From IMG/VR virus record IMGVR_UViG_3300044712_000766, positions 1-48,694 of that record: DNA of 48,694 nt; one strand, given 5' to 3'. The stretch comes from a virus. The notes under the pieces are model-generated. The model saw only the letters and a list, made by a program, of their open reading frames with translations. It was not told where the DNA came from and searched no databases. Positions 2,631-33,042 of this stretch are shown here, one piece after another (the first letter of the stretch is position 1; each line of letters opens with the position of its first letter). A program made the translations under genes and the position numbers.

Positions 2631-2834
2631 TCAGGCCAGCGGGTCATCCCACGGCGCCACAGCTCCAGCCCTCGGCAGCGTGCTCCTCATCGCCCACAGC
2701 GACGCTGACCGTTGCACCATCCACGCCTGCAGCAACTGCTTCGCCAGCTTCCGCAGCACCTCAAGATCGTTGGTCGCATCGATTGCTCGCGACATCCGCT
2801 CCTGCTCAAACTGCTGCGCCGTGGTCAGCTCCAT
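2631..2834 (-). CDS. 67-residue conserved-looking helical protein, possibly picocyanobacterial
   Basis: It starts MELTTAQQFEQERMSRAID and continues with LRKLAKQLLQAWMVQ, a charged two-helix protein. The ATG overlaps the endolysin stop (TGATG), so the two are co-translated. From memory the pattern resembles short proteins beginning (M)ELT..Q.F..E in picocyanobacteria and their phages. The phycobilisome-degradation protein NblA has a loosely similar size and opening, but the match is too weak to claim. It is the last gene of the lysis cassette. Confidence 0.75.
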   Translation of the reverse strand: MELTTAQQFEQERMSRAIDATNDLEVLRKLAKQLLQAWMVQRSASLWAMRSTLPRAGAVAPWDDPLA

Positions 2835-4009
2835 CAGATCGGCCTCACAGGCGGGCAACTGCCCAGCTTCCAATCCACGAACAGTAGGCGCGGACCGTGT
2901 TTCCGCAGTAGCTCAACGCACCGTTTGACATCCGCAACACTCCGCAGCACCACGCACCCCGCACTACCCGGCGCCACACCGTGGTTCTCGTCGTAGTGGA
3001 TCCCGATAGCGCTTCGCTCCGTCTTCCCCGGCGCCTGGTAGTTCAAACCCACCCACACCGGCCCCAGCCCCGGCCCCCAGCTCCCGCTGTAGTTATCCCG
3101 TCCGTTGGCCCACTCAATGTCCTCCACGCCCCAGCGGCCCTCCGGCAGCGGCTCCATGCTCTGCGCCCTGCTGTCCCGCCCCCTGCGGAAGCTCTGCCGC
3201 CCCGGCGCCCCGCTCACCACCAGCAGGTTCGCCATCGGGATGCTGTTCACCACAAACTCCAGCTTCAGCAGCTCAAGGCCTCGTGCATCAACCTGCCCCG
3301 TCCGCATCAGCGTCATGTGATTGGGCAACCTCACCGGCTGCTGGGCAGGAACCTGCAACTGAGGCAGCCCCTTCCCTGTCCAGAGATCCCCTTCCGCCTT
3401 CCGCCGCCGCCTCAGCCCTGCCTCCACGCTCGTCCCAGGGTTCACATACAGCAGCAGCGCTTCTGGCACCCTCTCGAACTGGGCATCCTGCACCCTAGCC
3501 GTGATCGTCGAAAACCCCTGGCCGCCATACCAGTTCGGGCCCACGTTGTACGTGAAGCTCAGTAACGCTGCCTGCTGGTTCGCCCGCATCGCCCCCCAGG
3601 TCGGCACCATCTTGGCAAGGTGCTTCTCATCACGCCGCACCCGCACCGCCAGCAGCTCATCCGCCTGCGCCTGCGTCACCGTGTCCCCGGGCTTCACACG
3701 CTGCCCATTGAGATAGGCGGTCGAGCCCCAGCCGATCGTCCACGGCTCACCGCCCGTCCCAGGATCCGGATACGCCTGCAGCTTGCACCCCTCAAACTCC
3801 CTGATCAGCGGTAGCGCCAGCGCCACGGCATCCGGTGCCACAACCGGCGCCGCAGGACTCCCCGCCGCACGCCACAGCTCGGTGAACTGCTGCCGCTGGG
3901 CATCCGTCAGCCCTTGATCCAGCGCGGTCAGTGCCGCAAGCTGATGCGGGGTGATCCTCCCCGTCCGCGCCACATGCTCCGCTGCAGCCCTTACAGACGC
4001 GAAAGTCAT
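2834..4009 (-). CDS. Endolysin: GH24 lysozyme fused to a YkuD-like L,D-transpeptidase domain
   Basis: A 391-residue protein in three parts. Residues 1-55 are a short helical module. Residues 62-225 are a T4-type lysozyme (GH24) with the E-D-T pattern at E73, D82 and T91, and the conserved N-Q-AALLSFTYNVG helix. Residues 230-385 look like a YkuD-type L,D-transpeptidase or related fold: a conserved His in IGIHYDEN (near 338) and the SAGC nucleophile motif (349-352). The start overlaps the upstream gene stop (4006-4009, ATGA). It would cut or remodel peptidoglycan at lysis. Whether the second domain is catalytic is an inference. Confidence 0.85.
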   Translation of the reverse strand: MTFASVRAAAEHVARTGRITPHQLAALTALDQGLTDAQRQQFTELWRAAGSPAAPVVAPDAVALALPLIREFEGCKLQAYPDPGTGGEPWTIGWGSTAYLNGQRVKPGDTVTQAQADELLAVRVRRDEKHLAKMVPTWGAMRANQQAALLSFTYNVGPNWYGGQGFSTITARVQDAQFERVPEALLLYVNPGTSVEAGLRRRRKAEGDLWTGKGLPQLQVPAQQPVRLPNHMTLMRTGQVDARGLELLKLEFVVNSIPMANLLVVSGAPGRQSFRRGRDSRAQSMEPLPEGRWGVEDIEWANGRDNYSGSWGPGLGPVWVGLNYQAPGKTERSAIGIHYDENHGVAPGSAGCVVLRSVADVKRCVELLRKHGPRLLFVDWKLGSCPPVRPI

Positions 4010-4239: not shown

Positions 4240-4250
4240 CCTAGCTTGCC
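4240..4250 (-). promoter_or_regulatory. Late-gene upstream element (GGCAAGCTAGG)
   Basis: Minus-strand copy of the repeated element, 18 bases before the ATG at 4221. Confidence 0.5.
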
Positions 4251-7322: not shown

Positions 7323-7332
7323 GGCAACCTAG
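7323..7332 (+). promoter_or_regulatory. Late-gene upstream element (GGCAACCTAG)
   Basis: Copy of the repeated element, 18 bases before the ATG at 7351. Confidence 0.5.
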
Positions 7333-7895: not shown

Positions 7896-7908
7896 GGCAA
7901 CCTAGGCC
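7896..7908 (+). promoter_or_regulatory. Late-gene upstream element (GGCAACCTAGGCC)
   Basis: Full-length copy directly abutting the portal ATG at 7909. Confidence 0.55.
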
Positions 7909-9447
7909 ATGACGTATTCCTACGGCACCGATAAAGCACGCCTCAACGCGCATCCCAGCACTGCCCGCACCCTTGAGGTCTGGCAGCCGGGGCAAGTGTG
8001 GGAGCGGATGGCCCCACGCTGGGAGCTTCCTGAGGCTTTGGCCGCTGGCACCATCTACCTGCAGCAGCAGGGTGAGCGGTGGCTGCCCAGGGAGCCCGAG
8101 GAGCAGGATGCCTCCTATGCCGTGCGTTTGGGCAACAGCATGTGCCCGCCGTACATGCTGCGGCTGGAGAACATGCTCGCTGGCCTGCTGTGCCGTCAGG
8201 CGATCCGGCTGGAGGACGTGCCAGATGTCATTCGTGAGCACATGTTCAACGTTGACTTACAGGGCAACGACTTGGACGCTTGGCTTTACGGCACGGCAAA
8301 GAAGATGATCCGTTACGGGCATATTGGCACGTTGGTAGATATGCCACGCGATGGCGAGGATGTAGACGCTCGCCCTTACTGGATCTCCTACACGCCTAGA
8401 GACATCCTTGGTTTTCAGCCTGCGATGGCAGGTGGCAGTCAGCGTATTGTTGAGCTTCGGTTACAAGAGGAGATCATTCTTCCTTACGACCCGTCTAACG
8501 GTTCAAGCACGGCACGCTATGGCGAGGAAGCGGCAACCCAGATCCGGGTGCTGCGGCCCGGCAGCTTTGAGCTATGGCGCAGCAAGGGCGGCAGAACGCT
8601 TGATTTCAACATGGTGGACTCTGGCCCCACCACCCTGCAGCAGATCCCCTTTGCCGTTGCGTATGCCAATCGCGTGGGGCTGCTCGAGAGCGTCCCGGCG
8701 CTGGAGGAGGTGGCATGGCTGAACTTGGCGGCCTACCGGCGGACCAGCGACCTGGCGAACCAGCTCCACATCGCGGCGGTGCCCCGTCAGTTCGTGTTCG
8801 GTCTGCCGGGTGAGACCGAAAGCATCACCGTTGGCCCCAGCTTCGCCACGGCGCTGCCGGTTGATGCTCGGGTGGAGTTCTCAGAACCTGCTGGTACTAG
8901 CTACCAGTACCAGTTCCAGCATCTGGAGCTGCTCGAGAAGCAGATCAAGGAGCTGGGCCTTGCCACCGTCCATGGTGAGAAGGCCGTGGCCGAGTCGGGC
9001 CAGAGCAAGGAGATCAGCCGCAGCCAAGGCGACGGCACCCTGATGAGCATCGCCCTACAACTGCAGGACATGATCGACTCTGCCCTCCGCTTCCATGGGG
9101 AGTATCTGGGCCTGGCGCCTGACGCTGTGGGCCGGTGCATGGTCAACACCGAGTTCACTGAGGTCACGCTGGATGCCACCGTGGGCAAGTTCCTCCACGA
9201 ACTGCGGACGGCTGGCGACATCACCCAGGAGACGATGCTGATCAGCCTCGCCGCACGCAAGGCGTTCTATGACGACTTCGACGTAGACCGCGAGCTTGAG
9301 GAGACCGCGCAGCAGCAGGCGGAGATGCAGGCGCAGCGGGAGGAGGAGCTGAAAATGATGATGGAGGCGCAGGGGCAGCCTGTTGCAAATGCCAAACCGC
9401 CTGCTGCGGCTGGGCAACCTAAGGCATCTCCCCAGCCCCCTGTTTAG
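7909..9447 (+). CDS. Portal protein, DUF4055 type
   Basis: A 512-residue protein matching the DUF4055 portal family in length, order and motifs: an N-terminal helical region (LRLENMLAGLL), a GHIGTLVDMP segment with RPYW, an aromatic RPYWISYTPRDILGF core, a central QIPFAVAYANR-GLLE stretch, then a long stem helix and a C-terminal coiled coil (EETAQQQAEMQAQREEELK). The dodecameric portal forms the DNA channel and docks terminase. It starts directly after a perfect late-gene element. Confidence 0.88.
   Translation: MTYSYGTDKARLNAHPSTARTLEVWQPGQVWERMAPRWELPEALAAGTIYLQQQGERWLPREPEEQDASYAVRLGNSMCPPYMLRLENMLAGLLCRQAIRLEDVPDVIREHMFNVDLQGNDLDAWLYGTAKKMIRYGHIGTLVDMPRDGEDVDARPYWISYTPRDILGFQPAMAGGSQRIVELRLQEEIILPYDPSNGSSTARYGEEAATQIRVLRPGSFELWRSKGGRTLDFNMVDSGPTTLQQIPFAVAYANRVGLLESVPALEEVAWLNLAAYRRTSDLANQLHIAAVPRQFVFGLPGETESITVGPSFATALPVDARVEFSEPAGTSYQYQFQHLELLEKQIKELGLATVHGEKAVAESGQSKEISRSQGDGTLMSIALQLQDMIDSALRFHGEYLGLAPDAVGRCMVNTEFTEVTLDATVGKFLHELRTAGDITQETMLISLAARKAFYDDFDVDRELEETAQQQAEMQAQREEELKMMMEAQGQPVANAKPPAAAGQPKASPQPPV
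9413..9425 (+). promoter_or_regulatory. Late-gene upstream element (GGCAACCTAAGGC)
   Basis: Lies inside the portal 3' end, 24 bases before the ATG at 9450. Confidence 0.5.
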
Positions 9448-9449
9448 TC

Positions 9450-9824
9450 ATGGCTCGCAACTACAAACGCGACGCACGCGGACGCTTCTCCAGTGGAGGT
9501 GGTGGCGGTTCGTCCGGCGGTGGTGGCAGGAAAGCTGCTGGGAGTGGCGCCAAGGCTGCGGCAACCAGAGCCGCCAACAAGGCTGTTACCGACAGGATCA
9601 ACGCCACTGGGCAGACAGGGCAAGGCGGACGACTTTTTAAGAAAACCGCCGCCAAGTTCAGCGGCACCAAGGCTACTCAGCGCAGCAGGGCGCAAGACCT
9701 GGCGCGGACTGACCGGAATGATCAAGTTTCAAGGTTCGGTAGCCGCAAGGGCACCGTCACCAAGAAAGGCAAAGTCAAGCGCACCCGTGATCAAATCCTG
9801 GCTTCTATGAATCGGGGAAAGTAG
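9450..9824 (+). CDS. Basic Gly-rich protein with RDARGRF N-terminal module; zero-frame product of a -1 frameshift pair
   Basis: A 124-residue protein opening MARNYKRDARGRFSSGGGGG, then a Lys/Arg/Ala-rich region. The opening module recurs in two other proteins of this genome (13067 and 17479). The gene ends CGG GGA AAG TAG: the heptamer GGGAAAG (9815-9821) touches the stop codon and is phased as G-GGA-AAG, the lambda G/GT slippery site. A -1 shift there would extend the protein to about 301 residues. A minor head protein is the likeliest role, given its place between portal and scaffold. Confidence 0.8.
   Translation: MARNYKRDARGRFSSGGGGGSSGGGGRKAAGSGAKAAATRAANKAVTDRINATGQTGQGGRLFKKTAAKFSGTKATQRSRAQDLARTDRNDQVSRFGSRKGTVTKKGKVKRTRDQILASMNRGK
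9815..9821 (+). promoter_or_regulatory. Putative -1 ribosomal frameshift site (GGGAAAG)
   Basis: GGGAAAG is in the zero frame as G-GGA-AAG and is followed at once by TAG. Downstream sequence is strongly GC-rich with the palindrome GGTCCCGGGACC (9829-9840), which may help stall ribosomes. The -1 frame is open from 9791 to 10354 and has no ATG, GTG or TTG before 10007. Confidence 0.7.
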
Positions 9825-12671: not shown

Positions 12672-12824
12672 ATGGGGCTTACTGCTGCGAAGCGGTGGGC
12701 ACAGGTGCGGGCCGCTGGGGGGGAACCTCCGGCGGCTTTGCCGTCTGTGGAGCCTGCCAGAGAGGAGGGGCAACCTAAGGCACGCCGTGCCCGTAAACCA
12801 AAGGTGACCCGCGATGAAGATTGA
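12672..12824 (+). CDS. Small basic protein
   Basis: A 50-residue protein (MGLTAAKRWAQVRAAGG at the start) with a Pro/Glu middle and a very basic end (KARRARKPKVTRDED). It overlaps the next gene by 11 bases. The late-gene element GGCAACCTAAGGC lies inside its 3' half and serves the next start. Function unknown. Confidence 0.55.
   Translation: MGLTAAKRWAQVRAAGGEPPAALPSVEPAREEGQPKARRARKPKVTRDED
12769..12781 (+). promoter_or_regulatory. Late-gene upstream element (GGCAACCTAAGGC)
   Basis: Identical to the copy at 9413; 32 bases before the ATG at 12814, within the preceding small gene. Confidence 0.5.
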
Positions 12825-13062
12825 CGTTTTTGATCAGGGGTTCGAGCACATCAGCGATACGGCGGCGCACACGGGCAACTTCTGCCGGATCTATGCGCTG
12901 GCGACGGCGGTGATCTCCAGTGCCACCGTGAGAGGGCTGACGGCAGGCTCTAATGCGTTCACGAGTGTGCCGCTGCCTGCTGGTGCGTGGATTGATGGGC
13001 AGTTCAGCAGCATCACGCTGGCATCGGGCCGGGTGATCGCGTACCGGGCGGATAGGGGCTGA
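12814..13062 (+). CDS. Small beta-rich structural protein
   Basis: An 82-residue protein (MKIDVFDQGFEHISDTAAH at the start) with alternating strands and Gly turns and an end GRVIAYRADRG. It lies between decoration-like and minor capsid genes and is probably a virion component. No family is assigned. Confidence 0.65.
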   Translation: MKIDVFDQGFEHISDTAAHTGNFCRIYALATAVISSATVRGLTAGSNAFTSVPLPAGAWIDGQFSSITLASGRVIAYRADRG

Positions 13063-13066
13063 CCCG

Positions 13067-13831
13067 ATGGCACGCCGTTACACCAGGGACAATCGCGGGC
13101 GGTTCGCTAGTGCTGGAGGCGGTGGCGCCACTGCACGGGGCGGGAGGCTGCGGACGGCGAGCGGGGGGAAGCGTGCCACGCAGACGATGAAAGCCGGGAA
13201 ACGGGCTACCCCTGATGGAGCGATCCGCACAACGGACGTGAACAAGGCCAAGGTTCACAACGCCGTCAGCAAGATCGTTCAAGCCAATCAGGCCAAGGGC
13301 AATTATGACCAGAACAGGTATAGGCCTGAGGGCAAGCTGTCGCGCCTGATGGCGGCTGAAAAGCGCGTGGCGGCACGGGCTGAGCCCGTAGCTAAGCCAC
13401 AGGCGAAAGGCCTCCGCACTGTCGTGACCCCCACGGGTAAAGGGCCAGTAGCTGAAGCGGCAATTCGTGCAAAGGCTAAGGCTGCCGTCCGTCGCGCTGG
13501 TGGAGCCAAAGCGGTAGAAACGCAAAGCGGTCAAAAGCGCATCAAGCAAAGCCCCGTTATGGACACCATGAGCGCCAAAGGGCGCGGTCCAAAAACGCCG
13601 ATGCAACGCGTTGATCAGAAGATCATGCGGAACGACTACATCAGGAACAACCCCACACGCGTCACAAGCACGCAATACAGCAGGGCTGTTCGGTCGTCCC
13701 TGACCTTGCGTGATGCCAAGGCGTTTTTGTCCACGGGCAAGCCGCAGCACACCAAAGGCAGTTTCAAGAGCAATAAGGCTGCCAACGGCATCATCCGCAA
13801 CGCAAGGAAGTACCTTTCGGGTCGCAAATGA
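13067..13831 (+). CDS. Basic minor head protein with RDxRGRF N-terminal module
   Basis: A 254-residue protein opening MARRYTRDNRGRFASAGGGG, the same module as the proteins at 9450 and 17479. The rest is Lys/Arg/Ala-rich with little hydrophobic content and probably disordered or DNA-binding. It ends ARKYLSGRK and its stop overlaps the next start (13828-13831). An internal virion protein is likely from composition and position. Confidence 0.75.
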   Translation: MARRYTRDNRGRFASAGGGGATARGGRLRTASGGKRATQTMKAGKRATPDGAIRTTDVNKAKVHNAVSKIVQANQAKGNYDQNRYRPEGKLSRLMAAEKRVAARAEPVAKPQAKGLRTVVTPTGKGPVAEAAIRAKAKAAVRRAGGAKAVETQSGQKRIKQSPVMDTMSAKGRGPKTPMQRVDQKIMRNDYIRNNPTRVTSTQYSRAVRSSLTLRDAKAFLSTGKPQHTKGSFKSNKAANGIIRNARKYLSGRK

Positions 13832-13959
13832 GCAAGGCCAAGGCGGGTCTAAGCGGCACCCTGAAGCCCGTGCCCGTGGAGAAGACCACCCGCCAGGGCA
13901 ACGGGCGGCACAGTAGGCCCAGCCACGGGCGTAAGCTGTCCCGTGGGCAGGGACGATGA
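13828..13959 (+). CDS. Small basic phage protein ending in GRKLSRGQGR
   Basis: A 43-residue protein starting MSKAKAGLSGTLKPVPVEKT, coupled to the upstream gene by ATGA and ending directly before the MuF-like gene. From memory, short basic proteins with an R-GQGR end occur between head genes in other aquatic phages. Role unknown. Confidence 0.65.
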   Translation: MSKAKAGLSGTLKPVPVEKTTRQGNGRHSRPSHGRKLSRGQGR

Positions 13960-15000
13960 ATGGACCCGGTTGAGGTCTTTCTCCGCAACGCCCTGAAGCA
14001 GAAGGGCGTCGAGGACCGGGCGATACGGGCAGCATTGAAGCGCCTGCGGCCAGTGATGACGCAGATTCGCCTCCTCATCGCGGACTCCGGCGTGTTGGCA
14101 CTGAGGCCCGACCGTGAGCGTCTGATTGCTGCCGTGACCAGCAGGGCGGCGCAGATCATCCAGCAGGAGTGGGGCCAGCCGGCGCTGGAGCAGTTCCGCG
14201 AGACTCTGGGGCCGTACCTGAACGATCAGGCGCAGTTTGCCAGGGACATGGTGGAGTCGGCAGGGGGCACCCTGAACCGGCCCAATGTGGTGACGGCCAA
14301 CCCGATTGCCGCGACGCAGCAGGCGATGGTGGGCGGCAGGCCGCTGGTGGATCAGATGCTGCTGGGGATCCCGGCGCAGGCTGCCGAGCGGTTGGCGCAG
14401 TTCATCAGGATGGGCAGCGGCATCGAGCCTGGTGAGGTGCTGGCGCGGTATGACAACGCGGTGGTGCGTCGGGTGGAGAACACGATCAGCGCCACGATCA
14501 CCAGCGGGGTGCAGGCGACGGGCGACTTGTACCAGATGGCGGTGTATCAGCTAGAGGCCGACCCGGCCTGGCTGGAGGGCCGTTTGCAGTGGACCGCCAC
14601 GCTCGATTCACGCGTTTGCCCTACTTGTGTGGCCCTTGACGGCAAGGAATACAAGCTGGGCGAGCCTGGACCTTATTGGGACGGGCAAATGAAGATAGAC
14701 CCCCACCCGAATGACCGCTGTTTTCTAGTCCCTGCGAAGTGGCGCAAGGATGGGCAGGAGCGCATTGTCGAGGGGGACGACGGGGAGCGTGCCCTGAACT
14801 TCCGCCGGTCGGCCAAGGTCTGGGTGCGGGAGAACCCGGAGACGGCCCGCGAGATCTTTGGCCAGACGCTCGGCAGCAGGCTGGTGGGATCTTGGCCCGA
14901 TAACGACTGGGGGCGACGGCAACTGGAGCGGTTCGGTCCGCCTGAGGTGATTTCGTTCAACAAGGCGCTTAAGATATGGCAGTCCCCGGCGCCTGACTGA
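13960..15000 (+). CDS. MuF/SPP1 gp7-like head morphogenesis protein
   Basis: A 346-residue protein. A helical N-terminal two thirds leads into the MuF signature near residues 205-255: TATLDSRVCPTCVALDGKEY followed by P-HPNDRCF, with paired Cys and His. These minor capsid proteins bind the portal and help shape the prohead and control DNA ejection. The one-base overlap with the next ATG (TGATG at 15000) shows coupling. Confidence 0.85.
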   Translation: MDPVEVFLRNALKQKGVEDRAIRAALKRLRPVMTQIRLLIADSGVLALRPDRERLIAAVTSRAAQIIQQEWGQPALEQFRETLGPYLNDQAQFARDMVESAGGTLNRPNVVTANPIAATQQAMVGGRPLVDQMLLGIPAQAAERLAQFIRMGSGIEPGEVLARYDNAVVRRVENTISATITSGVQATGDLYQMAVYQLEADPAWLEGRLQWTATLDSRVCPTCVALDGKEYKLGEPGPYWDGQMKIDPHPNDRCFLVPAKWRKDGQERIVEGDDGERALNFRRSAKVWVRENPETAREIFGQTLGSRLVGSWPDNDWGRRQLERFGPPEVISFNKALKIWQSPAPD

Positions 15001-15572
15001 TGCCGACTGCGATTGTCGCCACTGCCGGTGATGCCACTGCCAACAGCTACATCACGGTGGCTGAGGGCGACACCTTTGCGGGCGACGTGCTCCCCACCCC
15101 GGCATGGTCTGCGGCCACCAGCGACAACAAGATCCGCGCCCTGCTGGCGGCCACGGCCCGCCTTGACGAACTGGAGTGGATCGGTGCTCAGGCTGCCACC
15201 ACACAGGCCCTCGCGTGGCCCCGGACGGGGGCGAAATGCGGGGAGAAGGACTACGCCAGCACTGTGATTCCTGCGGAGGTGAAGCGGGGCACCTTCGATC
15301 TGGCCAACCTGCTGCTGAGCGACATCACCACCGACCCCTTCAGCACCGTGGCGCAGGTGACGGGCGAGCTGGTGCCGGGGATCAGCAACCAGGCGCTGAA
15401 GTCGGTCAACCTTGGCAACGGCGCGTTGAGCCTCGATTTCAAGGATGCCAGTTCGGCCCCCAGCGTCCGCAATGCGCTGAACGTGCTTCCCTCGCTGGTC
15501 ACCCTGTTTGGGTGCCTGTGCCTGACCGCGCCTGTTTCCACGGTCCGGCGCATTGCGCTTTCCAGATCGTGA
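15000..15572 (+). CDS. Head-tail adaptor, DnaT-like/gp6-type
   Basis: A 190-residue protein starting MPTAIVATAGDATANSYITV. The NSYITVAEGDTFAGD opening, the central LLAATARLDELEWIGAQA helix and the WPRTGAKCG motif fit the DnaT-like head-tail connector family found after MuF genes. It would dock under the portal. A less regular C-terminus after residue 165 may be an added tail. Confidence 0.75.
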   Translation: MPTAIVATAGDATANSYITVAEGDTFAGDVLPTPAWSAATSDNKIRALLAATARLDELEWIGAQAATTQALAWPRTGAKCGEKDYASTVIPAEVKRGTFDLANLLLSDITTDPFSTVAQVTGELVPGISNQALKSVNLGNGALSLDFKDASSAPSVRNALNVLPSLVTLFGCLCLTAPVSTVRRIALSRS

Positions 15573-15575
15573 GCC

Positions 15576-16154
15576 ATGGCCAGGAAGTGCCGTGATCAGC
15601 TCACTCTCCTGGTGCCGATGGGATTTGCGGAGGAGAAGATCCGCGCCGAGCCGCTGCTGGAGAAGCCTCTCACGCCTGAGGAGCGGCGCAGGATCGACAG
15701 GCTTTACAGGGAGAACCAAAGGCTGGTGTGGAAGTGCCAGCATGAAATGGCGTTGCTGTTTCCAAGCATCGGCCGGGAGCAGATCAACTCATGCGTTGAT
15801 GTTGGCTTCCTGAAGGCGGCCAGGGTGCATGACGCGGCGAAGGGGAAGCTCAGCACCCGGTTCTACGTGGATGCTCGAGGGGAGTGCACCCACTGGCTGC
15901 GCGCCCATGGGTACGGGGTGAGCGCACCGGGGAAGGTGCGGGAGCTGGGGGGGAAACTGCGGCAGTTGATGGGCCAGGGCCTGACGACGGAGCAGGCGCT
16001 GCGGGAGATCAATGCGCTGCGGAAGGTGCCGGCGACGCTCGAGGAGGCGAAGGATGCGCTGCTGGCCACGGCAGGCATCGCGCATGAGGTGAACAACTGG
16101 GAGGCGCACTACTGCCCTAGGCCGCAGCCGTGGGAGGTGGTGGAGGCCGGCTAG
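15576..16154 (+). CDS. Phage sigma factor-like protein (region 2 and part of region 3, no region 4)
   Basis: A 192-residue protein. Residues 45-113 match sigma70 region 2 as in group 3 factors of the SigF/SigB type: ENQRLVWKC, then CVDVGFLKAARVHDAAKGKL, STRFYVDARGEC and HWLRAHGYGV. Residues 117-150 (GKVRELGGKLRQLM onward) resemble region 3. Nothing after residue 155 looks like the region 4 helix-turn-helix. By analogy to T4 gp55, which also lacks a normal region 4, it could direct host RNA polymerase to late promoters by -10 contacts only. Homology is read by eye; the function is inferred. Confidence 0.7.
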   Translation: MARKCRDQLTLLVPMGFAEEKIRAEPLLEKPLTPEERRRIDRLYRENQRLVWKCQHEMALLFPSIGREQINSCVDVGFLKAARVHDAAKGKLSTRFYVDARGECTHWLRAHGYGVSAPGKVRELGGKLRQLMGQGLTTEQALREINALRKVPATLEEAKDALLATAGIAHEVNNWEAHYCPRPQPWEVVEAG

Positions 16155-16505: not shown

Positions 16506-16517
16506 GGCAAGCTAGGC
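16506..16517 (+). promoter_or_regulatory. Late-gene upstream element (GGCAAGCTAGGC)
   Basis: 15 bases before the tail tube ATG at 16533, just downstream of the TGCGGATTCGCA element. Confidence 0.5.
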
Positions 16518-16532
16518 AAACGCGCTACGACC

Positions 16533-17276
16533 ATGCCTGCCGGCGAGTACCTGATTAACTTCGACCACGAGCTGTGGATTGCCAGGGGCACCACTGCTAG
16601 CGCCATCCCGACCAGCACCACGGGGCTCACCAAGGTCTTCAACCTGACCGACGCGAGCATGACCAGCACCAGCACGTCGGTCAACGTCCAGGACTACGAC
16701 AGCGACCCGACCAGCGCGAGGGAGGCCATCACCAGCGTGGCGAAGTCGATGCCTGTGGTGCTGAACCTGAGCCCTGGGGATCCGGCCTACCAGATCCTGA
16801 TGGAGTGTGCCGACCGGGCCACCGAGAACCTTGCTGTGCGTTATTTCCGCATCAGTGCAAGGGTGCCGGGTTCGACTGGGGCGGATCCCGAGATCAGGGC
16901 CGGCATCGCCACCGTGAGCGGCTTCAACGAGGGCCGGGCCGTGGCTGGGGTGGGCGCGATGACCTTCACCCTGACCGCGTTTGGCGGGAGCATCTGGTAT
17001 CCGCAGGGCGGCGCTGCGGCGACTGTGACCGTCACCAGCGGGGGTAGCGGGATGACCCCAGCGACCTACACGGCGGTTCCGTTCATCCCGGTGGGGATCG
17101 GTGGCCGGAACGTGGTGGGCACCGTTGTGGTGGCTGCTGGTGGCTCGGTGACTGCAGCGCCGACGATCACTGCCGGTGGCAACAACGTGCGGGTTGGGGA
17201 CATCTACACGGTGGCAGCGGCCAACGTGGGCACCACTGGCGTGATGCCGACCTTCACCGTTGCGACGGTGGCCTAA
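16533..17276 (+). CDS. Major tail (tube) protein
   Basis: A 247-residue protein starting MPAGEYLINFDHELWIARG. The N-terminal 145 residues have the tail tube pattern: TGLTKVFNLTDASMT, NVQDYDSD, and an EGRAVAGVGAMTFTLTAFG strand pair near residue 140. The C-terminal 90 residues (Gly/Thr/Val repeats such as VTVTSGGSG) look like a surface-exposed Ig-like or decorating domain. It polymerises into the tail tube. Confidence 0.82.
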   Translation: MPAGEYLINFDHELWIARGTTASAIPTSTTGLTKVFNLTDASMTSTSTSVNVQDYDSDPTSAREAITSVAKSMPVVLNLSPGDPAYQILMECADRATENLAVRYFRISARVPGSTGADPEIRAGIATVSGFNEGRAVAGVGAMTFTLTAFGGSIWYPQGGAAATVTVTSGGSGMTPATYTAVPFIPVGIGGRNVVGTVVVAAGGSVTAAPTITAGGNNVRVGDIYTVAAANVGTTGVMPTFTVATVA

Positions 17277-17497: not shown

Positions 17498-17510
17498 GCC
17501 TTAGGTTGCC
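17498..17510 (-). promoter_or_regulatory. Late-gene upstream element, minus strand (GGCAACCTAAGGC)
   Basis: Same 13 bases as at 9413 and 12769; all three copies precede RDxRGRF-type or small basic head genes, here 18 bases before ATG 17479. Confidence 0.5.
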
Positions 17511-17941: not shown

Positions 17942-18331
17942 CTAGCTGTAGCGGATGATCCGCAGCTCGTCGCCCAGCACGTTGCGGAGGGTGCTGCCGA
18001 TGAGGCCGGTTTTGCCGAAGCTGCTGCCGATCTCGGAGACGACGCAGGGGTAGGCAGACTCGCCACCCCATGTGAGGGTGCCCCGGATGCCGCGCTTCAC
18101 CCTGGCGTCAACGGCGGAGGGGCTTACCGCGTAACCGGCCAGCACGTCGTTGTCCACGTTGACGCCTGGGAGGTCGTTGGGCTTGAAGGTGGAGCGCTTG
18201 AGGTAGAGCTGGACCGTCACGGTTTCGGTGGCCGGGGTGACGTTACCGGTGGCAGGATCTGTGACCGTGCCAACTGTAGGGACCGTGAAAACGGCCGTGG
18301 CATTGGCGATCCCGAGGAGTGCGCTGCTCAT
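17942..18331 (-). CDS. Head-tail joining protein candidate
   Basis: A 129-residue strand-rich protein (MSSALLGIANATAVFTVP at the start). The ATG at 18331 directly follows a late-gene element and is preferred to a GTG at 18349. It ends LGDELRIIRYS, three bases before the gp10-like start. Its place beside gp10 suggests a head-closure or neck role, but no clear family match is seen. Confidence 0.65.
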   Translation of the reverse strand: MSSALLGIANATAVFTVPTVGTVTDPATGNVTPATETVTVQLYLKRSTFKPNDLPGVNVDNDVLAGYAVSPSAVDARVKRGIRGTLTWGGESAYPCVVSEIGSSFGKTGLIGSTLRNVLGDELRIIRYS

Positions 18332-18344
18332 GCCATAGGTTGCC
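18332..18344 (-). promoter_or_regulatory. Late-gene upstream element, minus strand (GGCAACCTATGGC)
   Basis: Abuts the ATG at 18331; one base differs from the consensus. Confidence 0.5.
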
Positions 18345-18636: not shown

Positions 18637-18649
18637 GGCAAGCTAGGCC
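18637..18649 (+). promoter_or_regulatory. Late-gene upstream element (GGCAAGCTAGGCC)
   Basis: Abuts the tape measure ATG at 18650. Confidence 0.55.
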
Positions 18650-24570: not shown

Positions 24571-24583
24571 GGCAAGCTAGGCC
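24571..24583 (+). promoter_or_regulatory. Late-gene upstream element (GGCAAGCTAGGCC)
   Basis: 16 bases before the GTG start at 24600, in a 31-base intergenic gap. Confidence 0.5.
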
Positions 24584-24599: not shown

Positions 24600-25013
24600 G
24601 TGGCCGAAACGATCAGCATCAGTCAGGCATGGCTGAAACGCAAGGCTGACCTTGCTTACGACGGCAGGGCCTATCGCGTGTTTCTGGCGAACAACAGCAC
24701 AGCAGGGCTGGACAACGAAGACACAGCCAGCGCCTGGCTGGCCGAGGAGCTGCCTAGTGCGAATGGCTACGCGGCAGCCACTGGGACGATCACCAGCGGC
24801 AGCGGCGCATGGAACGCAACGAACGGACGGTATGAGTTCCCGGCGATCGTGGCGACCTTCACTGCCACAGGGTCGGGTTTCGCCTACGACACAGTGGTGT
24901 TGAGGATCGGCACAGAAACGGCCATCGTCGGCACCCTCGTTGAGGATCCGGCCATCACATTGCTGGCAGGCCAAACGAAGTCCTATCGCATCGTGCTGGG
25001 TCAGGACGACTGA
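24600..25013 (+). CDS. Tail structural protein, paralogue of the previous gene
   Basis: A 137-residue protein with a GTG start (VAETISISQAWLKRKADL). The pattern of strands and the SANGY motif match the 24137 protein. The TGA overlaps the next ATG by one base. Probably a tail-tip component. Confidence 0.7.
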   Translation: MAETISISQAWLKRKADLAYDGRAYRVFLANNSTAGLDNEDTASAWLAEELPSANGYAAATGTITSGSGAWNATNGRYEFPAIVATFTATGSGFAYDTVVLRIGTETAIVGTLVEDPAITLLAGQTKSYRIVLGQDD

Positions 25014-26848: not shown

Positions 26849-27423
26849 CTCACGCGTACCCGGGCCAGTTTGACCGGGCGACGTTTAGGAAGGAGTTGCG
26901 GGCCGATGTGATCCGGGCGCTGCAGACACTGGCCAAGATCCGCCGGCAACAGGCGCATCTGGCGGAGGTGCCGATTGTGCGTGCCTGGGCCTCGTGGCTG
27001 AATGGCTACCGGAAGGAGGGCACCCCGCCGATCGAGATCGCAGAGCTGTATGCGTTCGGGGAGCCGAAGGCGGCAAGGATCAGTGCGGAGGTGGCAGCCG
27101 TTGTGATGGAGTTGCAGCACGAGCAGAAAGCCCACCCGCTGCTGCTGACGGTGTGGGATGACGTGACCAAGGCCGCGAGCGAGCACCAGAAGGTGCCGGA
27201 GGTGAGGGCCCTGCGGAGCGATGACCAGACGGTGTGGATCGTGGCGCCGAAGTGGGAGGGCGGGGCGTGCCGGGGCGGGCTTGTGGCGGTGGGGACGCAG
27301 GTGAGCGGTGAGGTGCTGGTGCGCGACATGGATCGCCCGCTGCTGACTTATCGGGTGGTGCTGCCGGAGCGTCAGGGCTGCGGGTGGGTGGCGACGGGGG
27401 AACTGCTGGCGGCGGCAACCTAG
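26788..27423 (+). CDS. Frameshift extension of the chaperone-like protein
   Basis: After the shift the product continues with AARGQGKREKTDWSAKFWEL and AHAYPGQFDRATFRKEL, a W/F-P-x-F arrangement like the C-terminal parts of tail assembly chaperones. The helical RALQTLAKIRRQQAHLAEVP segment and then a beta-rich domain (TVWIVAPKW, RPLLTYRVVLPER) follow. Independent initiation at TTG 26896 is possible but would leave conserved-looking residues untranslated. Confidence 0.7.
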   Translation, partial: AARGQGKREKTDWSAKFWELAHAYPGQFDRATFRKELRADVIRALQTLAKIRRQQAHLAEVPIVRAWASWLNGYRKEGTPPIEIAELYAFGEPKAARISAEVAAVVMELQHEQKAHPLLLTVWDDVTKAASEHQKVPEVRALRSDDQTVWIVAPKWEGGACRGGLVAVGTQVSGEVLVRDMDRPLLTYRVVLPERQGCGWVATGELLAAAT

Positions 27424-27426: not shown

Positions 27427-27918
27427 ATGAGCGCCCTCCTCGACCTCCGCACAACCCTCTCCAGCATCCTTGCTGCAGAGCTGGGCACCTACACGCTTGC
27501 CAACGGTTCCACCACCCCGGCGGTGCGTTGCTCCGGGCCTGATGAGACCCGTTACCCCGGCACCATCGTGCAGGGGCTTGAACTGGTCATCATCAAAGAC
27601 CCGAGGCTCATCCCTATCCGGCAATACCAACAGGAGCGGGTGCAGGTGGAGTGGACCGCCTTCCTCGTGGCATGGGGGGACCGGCCGTCTGGCATTGCGG
27701 CACAGCTTGTTGCAGATGCCATCCCCGGCTGTGATATCGAGCGCGTTGAGGTTCCGCAAGGGATCGGCCCGCAAGACCAGTACAGGCTGACCATTCGTGG
27801 CCTGTCTGCCCTGCCGCTGGATGCCCTTGTTCCTGCCACCTCCGGCGGGGACCAGCTCACGACTTTGGCCGGTGACGCGTTGGTGACGCTCGACGGCCGC
27901 TATCTGGTGACGATCTGA
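27427..27918 (+). CDS. Tail terminator/completion-like protein
   Basis: A 163-residue alpha/beta protein starting MSALLDLRTTLSSILAAELG, with a GLELVIIKDPRL strand, an RVQVEWTAFLVAW strand and a helix before DIERVEVPQG. This order resembles tail completion proteins of the gpU/minor tail family, although the position here is late in the tail module. It overlaps the next ATG by one base. The role is tentative. Confidence 0.6.
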   Translation: MSALLDLRTTLSSILAAELGTYTLANGSTTPAVRCSGPDETRYPGTIVQGLELVIIKDPRLIPIRQYQQERVQVEWTAFLVAWGDRPSGIAAQLVADAIPGCDIERVEVPQGIGPQDQYRLTIRGLSALPLDALVPATSGGDQLTTLAGDALVTLDGRYLVTI

Positions 27919-33033: not shown

Positions 33034-33042
33034 GGCAACCTA
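33034..33042 (+). promoter_or_regulatory. Late-gene upstream element core (GGCAACCTA)
   Basis: Core nine bases, 25 bases before the GTG at 33068. Confidence 0.4.

Follow-up and report, generated by a model that had tools for sequence, protein, structure and literature searches.

A virus-encoded sigma factor without region 4 and a candidate late promoter motif suggest clamp-coupled late transcription in siphoviruses of picocyanobacteria

We describe a virus-encoded sigma factor that consists of regions 2 and 3 and has no region 4. We think it rather probable that it is an autoregulated late sigma, acting at promoters without a -35 element and tethered to the DnaN clamp of its host, a gp55-like logic achieved with other parts. 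Computation gave a sigma fold, a conserved absence of region 4, a late-gene motif without a -35 box and conserved motifs in the protein tails. From these we infer that the sigma reads GGMANNCTA, that this sequence serves as a promoter and that DnaN is the partner of the tail. According to this proposal, region 2, aided by region 3, would bind the host RNA polymerase core, and the two regions would read GGMANNCTA as a compact element of extended -10 type, with GG at about -14/-13, A at -11 and T at -7. No -35 element would be needed, since region 4 is missing. The sigma would drive the virion and lysis genes and, via them, its own gene, in a positive feedback. Its N-terminal QLTLL would dock on the host DnaN sliding clamp and recruit or stabilise a holoenzyme that lacks a -35 anchor, and late genes would in this way be transcribed from replicated DNA, a coupling that T4 achieves with gp55 and gp45. 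Promoter reading and clamp tethering are judged apart because the motifs do not always co-occur. A late sigma reading GGMANNCTA sites seems to us quite likely, and for tethering through the tail motif we put the chances at even or slightly better.

The gene lies in a viral record of 48,694 bases, the whole stretch of DNA that was analysed and that we call the window, which encodes an integrase and a siphovirus late region. The record is collinear with its relative G001 but circularly permuted, and for that reason it is probably near-complete. Siphophages infecting Synechococcus and Prochlorococcus are its nearest named relatives by capsid protein, and the sigma gene has cellular homologues in genomes titled Synechococcus or Cyanobium and in one cyanobacterial MAG. 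The host is therefore most likely a picocyanobacterium, and the virus is probably a temperate siphovirus of such hosts. A preliminary description of this DNA had placed a truncated sigma gene inside the head gene cluster. The gene is indeed present at 15576-16154; its place, however, is the head-tail junction, with Ad1 before it and the major tail protein after it, rather than deep among head genes. In the Ad1-linked loci (L013-L027) a sigma relative comes right after Ad1 in 15 of 15, and some of these loci have an HNH-like gene inserted ahead of the tail gene. The features of the region are the following.

15000-15572, plus strand: head-tail adaptor Ad1, 5' neighbour (phrog_477, E=3.4e-27)
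15576-16154, plus strand: sigma-like protein of 192 aa with regions 2 and 3 and without region 4 (ATG at 15576, stop codon ending at 16154)
15597-15611, plus strand: QLTLL, codons 8-12, candidate beta-clamp-binding motif in the low-confidence N-terminal tail (Q8 and L9 invariant; consensus as in the accessible text of PMC12309361)
15675-15914, plus strand: sigma region 2, residues ~34-113 (PHROG 351 match at 37-142; VIA-align of 34-112 to 8b3z_D, Z 10.0)
15924-16073, plus strand: region-3-like helices, residues ~117-166 (SigB/FliA profile matches to model position 157-162; VIA-align to ~172)
16074-16151, plus strand: conserved C-terminal tail, RPxPxExLE.. (from alignments; pLDDT below 50 at 168-183)
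16533-17276, plus strand: major tail protein, 3' neighbour (phrog_158, E=2.1e-4)

The preliminary description had read the gene as a group-3-style sigma with region 3-like sequence after region 2, and profile and structure comparisons agree with it on both points. PHROG 351, 'RNA polymerase sigma factor', matches residues 37-142 of the window protein with E=1.5e-5, a modest similarity when this protein is taken alone, and PHROG 36098, another sigma family, matches residues 63-138. For the single protein Pfam gave nothing convincing, its sole match being HTH_38 at E=0.15, and a phmmer search with the single sequence against solved structures returned chance matches only and no sigma. In the family alignment (n=15), both sigma PHROGs match all 15 members (best 1.6e-15) and Pfam Sigma70_r2 matches two of the 15 (best 1e-5). 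Among solved structures the family profile retrieves SigB (8x6g, 1.9e-7), SigF (1l0o, 1.1e-6), FliA and cyanobacterial SigA, with matches that cover regions 2 and 3 and nothing further. The best E-value of the profile, 1.8e-10, fell on 8vd6, 'CAP REPEAT', and was set aside as a sum of short helix-turn matches, each below threshold. The preliminary description had named a better match to an unrelated helical family as evidence against a sigma; in Pfam only HTH_38 came up, and it was discarded, the family profile retrieving sigmas.

Structure prediction, which had been suggested as a check, points the same way. In the AlphaFold model (mean pLDDT 74, 27 sequences), residues 34-112 superpose on the region 2 domain of SigE with Z 10.0 and rmsd 2.1 over 77 residues (VIA-align), and all 50 structural matches listed are sigma factors or sigma complexes, with weak Foldseek E-values (0.018 at best). 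Two-domain superpositions are loose (rmsd 4-9), the region 3 part of the model fitting loosely. Homology to region 3 is established by the profile, which runs through region 3 of SigB and FliA, and by a structural alignment that reaches residue ~172.

By the alignments, the protein ends where region 4 would be expected to start. Pfam finds no region 4 in the window protein or in any of seven lineage members (two of A, two of B and three of C, lineages defined below), and it matches region 4 in both controls, the full-length phage sigmas L006 and L009. Scanned across the whole 48.7 kb record, Sigma70_r4 has no match, while control genomes do match, and in 10 relatives nothing exceeds the cut-off. 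A region 2 match with no region 4 match is what the preliminary description had expected of a sigma in an HMM search, and the family-level PHROG and Sigma70_r2 matches together with the negative Sigma70_r4 scans give this result. We conclude that the sigma encoded at 15576-16154 comprises region 2 followed by a bundle of region-3-like helices and has no region 4. Comparison of the homologous sequences confirms the missing region 4 as a conserved truncation rather than a broken gene. Binding of core RNA polymerase and directed initiation are the putative role of the protein.

Lineage A comprises the window and its Ad1-linked relatives. In lineage B, which covers prophages and viruses from freshwater Synechococcus/Cyanobium, the sigma gene adjoins TerL, as it does in lineage C, made up of S-CRES3, S-CBS2, PSS2 and their relatives, which have few genes in common with the window. 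A tree with long branches keeps A, B and C as three separate groups and resolves neither their branching order nor a single loss of region 4. Loci were read for 40 of the 63 members of lineage C and for all 21 of lineage B. Clustering took closed ORFs only, 137 ORFs falling into 49 clusters (8 A, 12 B, 27 C, 2 outgroup), so that L016 and L065 are absent from it. In five of nine lineage B records searched (G016, G017, G019, G021 and G022), a further sigma-like match, weaker than that of the TerL-linked gene, falls in ORFs of 215-291 aa located elsewhere, and G018, also of lineage B, has two copies of the main sigma type. The S-CBS2 sigma (L007 4926-5546 / L134 2501-3233) is annotated with 206 aa; the match to S-CRES3 runs beyond its stop over the full 244 residues, so the reading frame must be broken or mis-sequenced there.

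The sequence GGCAASCTA was first seen in the gaps before late genes of the window, where it was picked by eye. It occurs in 12 copies against 0.49 expected, a count reached by none of 100 shuffles. All 12 fall within 4242-33042, the region of virion and lysis genes, most of them immediately 5' of late genes, and the right-hand 15.6 kb of the window, with integrase, recombination and SSB genes, has zero copies.

4242-4250, minus strand: GGCAAGCTA, upstream of a minus-strand block to which the lysozyme gene 2834-4009 belongs
7323-7331, plus strand: GGCAACCTA, with no ORF of at least 60 aa starting behind it
7896-7904, plus strand: GGCAACCTA, portal gene 4 nt further
9413-9421, plus strand: GGCAACCTA, ORF 9450-9824 28 nt further
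12769-12777, plus strand: GGCAACCTA, candidate late promoter 36 nt before ATG 12814, for the block 12814-16154 that ends with the sigma gene
16506-16514, plus strand: GGCAAGCTA, major tail protein gene 18 nt further
17502-17510, minus strand: GGCAACCTA, upstream of the minus-strand ORF ending at 17273
18336-18344, minus strand: GGCAACCTA, divergent ORF 17942-18331 4 nt further
18637-18645, plus strand: GGCAAGCTA, tape measure gene 4 nt further
24571-24579, plus strand: GGCAAGCTA, GTG of ORF 24600-25013 20 nt further
27414-27422, plus strand: GGCAACCTA, ORF 27427-27918 4 nt further
33034-33042, plus strand: GGCAACCTA, last copy, GTG 33068 25 nt further, the gene call being unsure

Some details of these loci may be recorded here. 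The minus-strand lysin at 2834-4009, with the motif upstream at 4242-4250, has a Phage_lysozyme match and a weak YkuD (L,D-transpeptidase) match, an unusual pairing. At the tape measure gene there is a divergent pair with one motif per strand (18336-18344 minus and 18637-18645 plus in the window; 15476 minus and 15478 plus in L177). In G1, a relative, one copy of the motif abuts another with two mismatches, back to back, and each has a start codon next to it.

Five relatives contain 9, 10, 8, 9 and 5 copies of GGCAASCTA, each with fewer than 0.6 expected, and the motif precedes an ORF downstream of the sigma gene in seven of the eight lineage A clusters. As the window motif had been chosen by eye, an unbiased pattern search upstream of ORFs in other genomes served as the independent test. 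Ranked first were GGNANACTA in S-CRES3 (15 of its 24 copies lying upstream of ORFs), GGNATNCTA in S-CBS2 (15 of 20) and GGAANNCTA in both PSS2 (11 of 13) and G015 (11 of 16), all with the common architecture GGMANNCTA. The p-values of these top patterns are 1e-10 to 3e-15; for such gapped patterns they are uncorrected for the very many patterns tried, so that ~1e-5 means little and weight is placed on values below 1e-8 and on the permuted control. The same search gave a one-base variant of GGTAGACTG type in G014 and nothing clear in G013, another member of lineage C. In the permuted control, the GGNANNCTR count was reached by at most 3 of 150 permuted patterns in each of six A and six C genomes (3 in G013, 2 in G1, 1 in the window, 0 in the others), and even the top permuted counts may come in part from overlap with the real motif.

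No excess of GGNANNCTR was seen in KBS-S-2A, S-H1 and MED4-184, which have no sigma of this family and whose TerL is 45-50% identical to that of the window; the sigma of KBS-S-2A is of a different, full-length-sized type. None was seen either in five of five lineage B genomes, and a single late motif common to A, B and C was rejected on this ground. Since controls with a similar TerL lack the motif and lineage C, with few genes shared, has it, the motif appears to track the region-4-less sigma, lineage B excepted, and not structural-gene ancestry.

The motif has several features expected of a promoter. When 67 A and 94 C sites are aligned, taken from six A genomes and four of the six C genomes (G013 and G014 omitted), no position between -45 and -3 carries more than 0.15 bit of information, so no -35 element is seen in this sample. 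The distance from motif to start codon is either 4 nt or ~19 nt (mostly 17-24 nt). Motif position 13 is a conserved A in both classes, and this A is a plausible transcription start site: it is present at 14 of the 15 sites spaced by 4 nt, where it doubles as the start codon's A, and at 37 of the other 51. If the A and T of MANNCT are set at -11 and -7, a register that we take over from sigma-70 promoters, the first G comes to -14, a position read in extended -10 elements. Few genes that overlap or directly adjoin the gene before them have the motif in front (8 of 94 in A and 7 of 121 in C), against 17 of 27 in A and 19 of 36 in C among genes with gaps of 10-29 nt.

The S-CRES3 genes with a site in front include TerS, sigma, tape measure, scaffold, lysozyme and fibre genes, the site of the sigma gene being the one-base variant GGTAGACTG, 21 nt ahead. 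Of the listed S-CRES3 genes that come before terminase, a single hypothetical gene has a site; the ribonucleotide reductase gene has one too, the list being a hand-picked subset of 122 features, mostly genes with a gap in front. The late programme proposed in the preliminary description is thus favoured by a late-gene-associated motif without a -35 box, and the candidate sites at 12769 and before the S-CRES3 sigma gene lend support to the positive feedback loop proposed with it.

The third element of the proposal is the tails. The bacterial clamp-binding consensus is QL[S/D]LF or QxxLF, and QLSLPL binds the E. coli clamp tightly (accessible text of PMC12309361). Lineage A N-terminal tails read QLTLL, QLTFL, QLTIL, QLTMF, QLSLL, QLSML, QLCLF or QLSLF. 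A QL[TSC]L[LF]-type motif is found in seven of the eight clusters, the remaining one (L027) having a doubtful QLGFDL; the QLTLL of the window has a final L where the consensus has F. In lineage B, 11 of 12 clusters have an N-terminal QLxLPL-like motif, QLVxAF or QLSLF, often two per protein; start codons are unsure in this lineage, the longest ORF having been used and some ORFs overlapping TerL, which weakens the B motifs. Lineage C has QxxLF at its very last residue in 16 of 27 clusters and lacks it in 11, including PSS2. The flanking tail sequence varies while the motifs recur, at the N-terminus in A and B and at the exact C-terminus in C. Among 884 background ORFs of the same contigs, the A and C patterns occur once each. 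The B hexapeptide is commoner (14 of 884), and B is for this reason the weaker case. Shuffled tails would give 0.03 of 8 clusters in A and 0.005 of 27 in C, figures that ignore kinship and so overstate independence.

The DnaN C-domain (PF02768) has no match in the window or its 10 relatives; a phage-encoded DnaN-type clamp was therefore discarded, and the presumed partner of the tail is the host clamp. In S-H1, a relative by TerL and capsid that has no such sigma, a gene for a DNA polymerase III beta clamp adjoins the terminase genes (L195 18187-19236). A 554-aa ORF that follows the lineage C sigma in L122 (1906-3570), a primase by S-CRES3 gene order, ends in a clamp-like QQALF. Promoter and clamp motifs are uncoupled in places, the promoter motif occurring without QxxLF in PSS2 and the clamp motif without the promoter motif in lineage B. 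In lineage A, the best clamp motifs are those of cluster L056 (L059-L062), whose QLSLF tail is of textbook form, yet this cluster has no GGMANNCTA after the sigma gene; its promoter element may differ.

It could be argued that a region-4-less late sigma reads GGMANNCTA with no clamp step at all, the QLxL(L/F) tails being incidental or used otherwise. PSS2, with the promoter motif but no QxxLF at the end of its sigma, would fit this reading, as would the observation that T4 activation is lowered, not abolished, without the clamp motif of gp55 (accessible text of PMC2988020 and PMC7892883). Tail motifs, however, are found repeatedly in the three lineages, at one end of the protein or the other and amid varying flanks, and we consider such a late sigma without any clamp step unlikely. 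It is clearly less probable that GGMANNCTA is a start-associated translation element and that the sigma acts elsewhere. The motif does lie near start codons, most often 17-24 nt ahead, but the 4-nt and ~19-nt classes both keep the A at position 13 and there is no resemblance to a Shine-Dalgarno sequence. Its rarity before overlapping or abutting genes, its frequency where gaps are 10-29 nt and its absence from the three control genomes that lack this sigma also argue against a role in translation.

Region 4 might instead be supplied by a separate protein of phage or host, as in the split sigma pair SigO/RsoA of Bacillus, and a protein ending where region 4 would start invites such a partner. 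The window record, which appears near-complete by its circular permutation against G001, has no Sigma70_r4 match, the 10 relatives have none above cut-off, and no conserved -35 exists for a partner to read. Even allowing that a very divergent or host-encoded partner would escape these scans, we find a split sigma very improbable. We give slightly less credit still to the idea of an anti-host protein or decoy, in which a fragment with region 2 would occupy the host core polymerase or clamp and shut down host transcription or replication instead of directing late promoters. The protein is truncated, and binding to both the beta-prime clamp helices and DnaN would be possible in principle; nevertheless, the gene sits in the late virion block in A and beside TerL in B and C, and it is associated with the promoter motif.

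We thus return to a late sigma that reads GGMANNCTA and is tethered to the host clamp. If coupling to the host clamp is true, late expression became coupled to replication on more than one occasion and can make use of a cellular clamp; up to now, late transcription through a replication clamp has been described for T4-like phages alone. It is tempting to propose a second, separately evolved clamp-coupled late transcription, in which region-4-less group 3 sigmas of cyanobacterial siphoviruses and prophages would use host DnaN through grafted N- or C-terminal peptides and fire -35-less GGMANNCTA promoters on replicating DNA only; for this wider claim we see just under an even chance. S-CRES3, S-CBS2 and PSS2 are isolated phages, which makes the proposal directly testable, and the motif offers a predicted late regulon in many uncultured cyanophages.

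Compared with bacterial group 3 sigmas of SigB/SigF type, the window sigma is alike in the sequence and fold of regions 2 and 3, and differs by the absence of region 4, which those sigmas have, including, by eye, the Synechococcus host sigma L173. The sigmas of PSS2 and S-CBS2 are homologous to it (lineage C) and adjoin a terminase gene, whereas in the window lineage the gene follows Ad1 and the clamp motif is N-terminal. The PSS2 sigma has been described as group 3 (PMC2784084), and the accessible text of that paper makes no mention of a missing region 4, a clamp motif or GGMANNCTA. Within the accessible open-licence literature, a scope outside which subscription papers fall, among them the siphocyanophage genome paper with S-CBS2, there is no report of GGMANNCTA or of a clamp-binding sigma outside T4-like phages. 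In the available part of a recent review, transcription activation by the T4 clamp is called a unique role (PMC9690074).

T4 gp55 has region 2 homology, late promoters with a -10-like element only and a clamp-binding end (accessible text of PMC2988020 and PMC7892883). The gp55/gp33/gp45 system resembles what we propose in that a phage sigma is built on region 2 without a normal region 4, and acts at -35-less sites with a terminal clamp peptide. The comparison with gp55 made in the preliminary description is apt as an analogy, which the terminal clamp-binding motifs strengthen. T4 gp55 is similar in size to the window sigma, and the T4 late promoter is TATAAATA. Here, in contrast, the promoter would be GGMANNCTA rather than TATAAATA, no gp33 has so far been recognised and the host clamp would take the place of phage gp45. 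The peptide resembles the DnaN-binding ones of bacteria and stands at the N-terminus in A and B; the C-terminal clamp epitope of gp55 is absent from the window lineage, a C-terminal motif being found only in lineage C. The body, unlike that of gp55, is a group 3 (SigF/SigB-like) region 2 plus region 3, and library scans of the window protein and its family returned other sigma families and no gp55-named one. Because of this group 3 body with region 3 and the N-terminal motif of its lineage, the window sigma is not filed as a member of the gp55 family, and T4 gp55 is the known system closest to it in logic.
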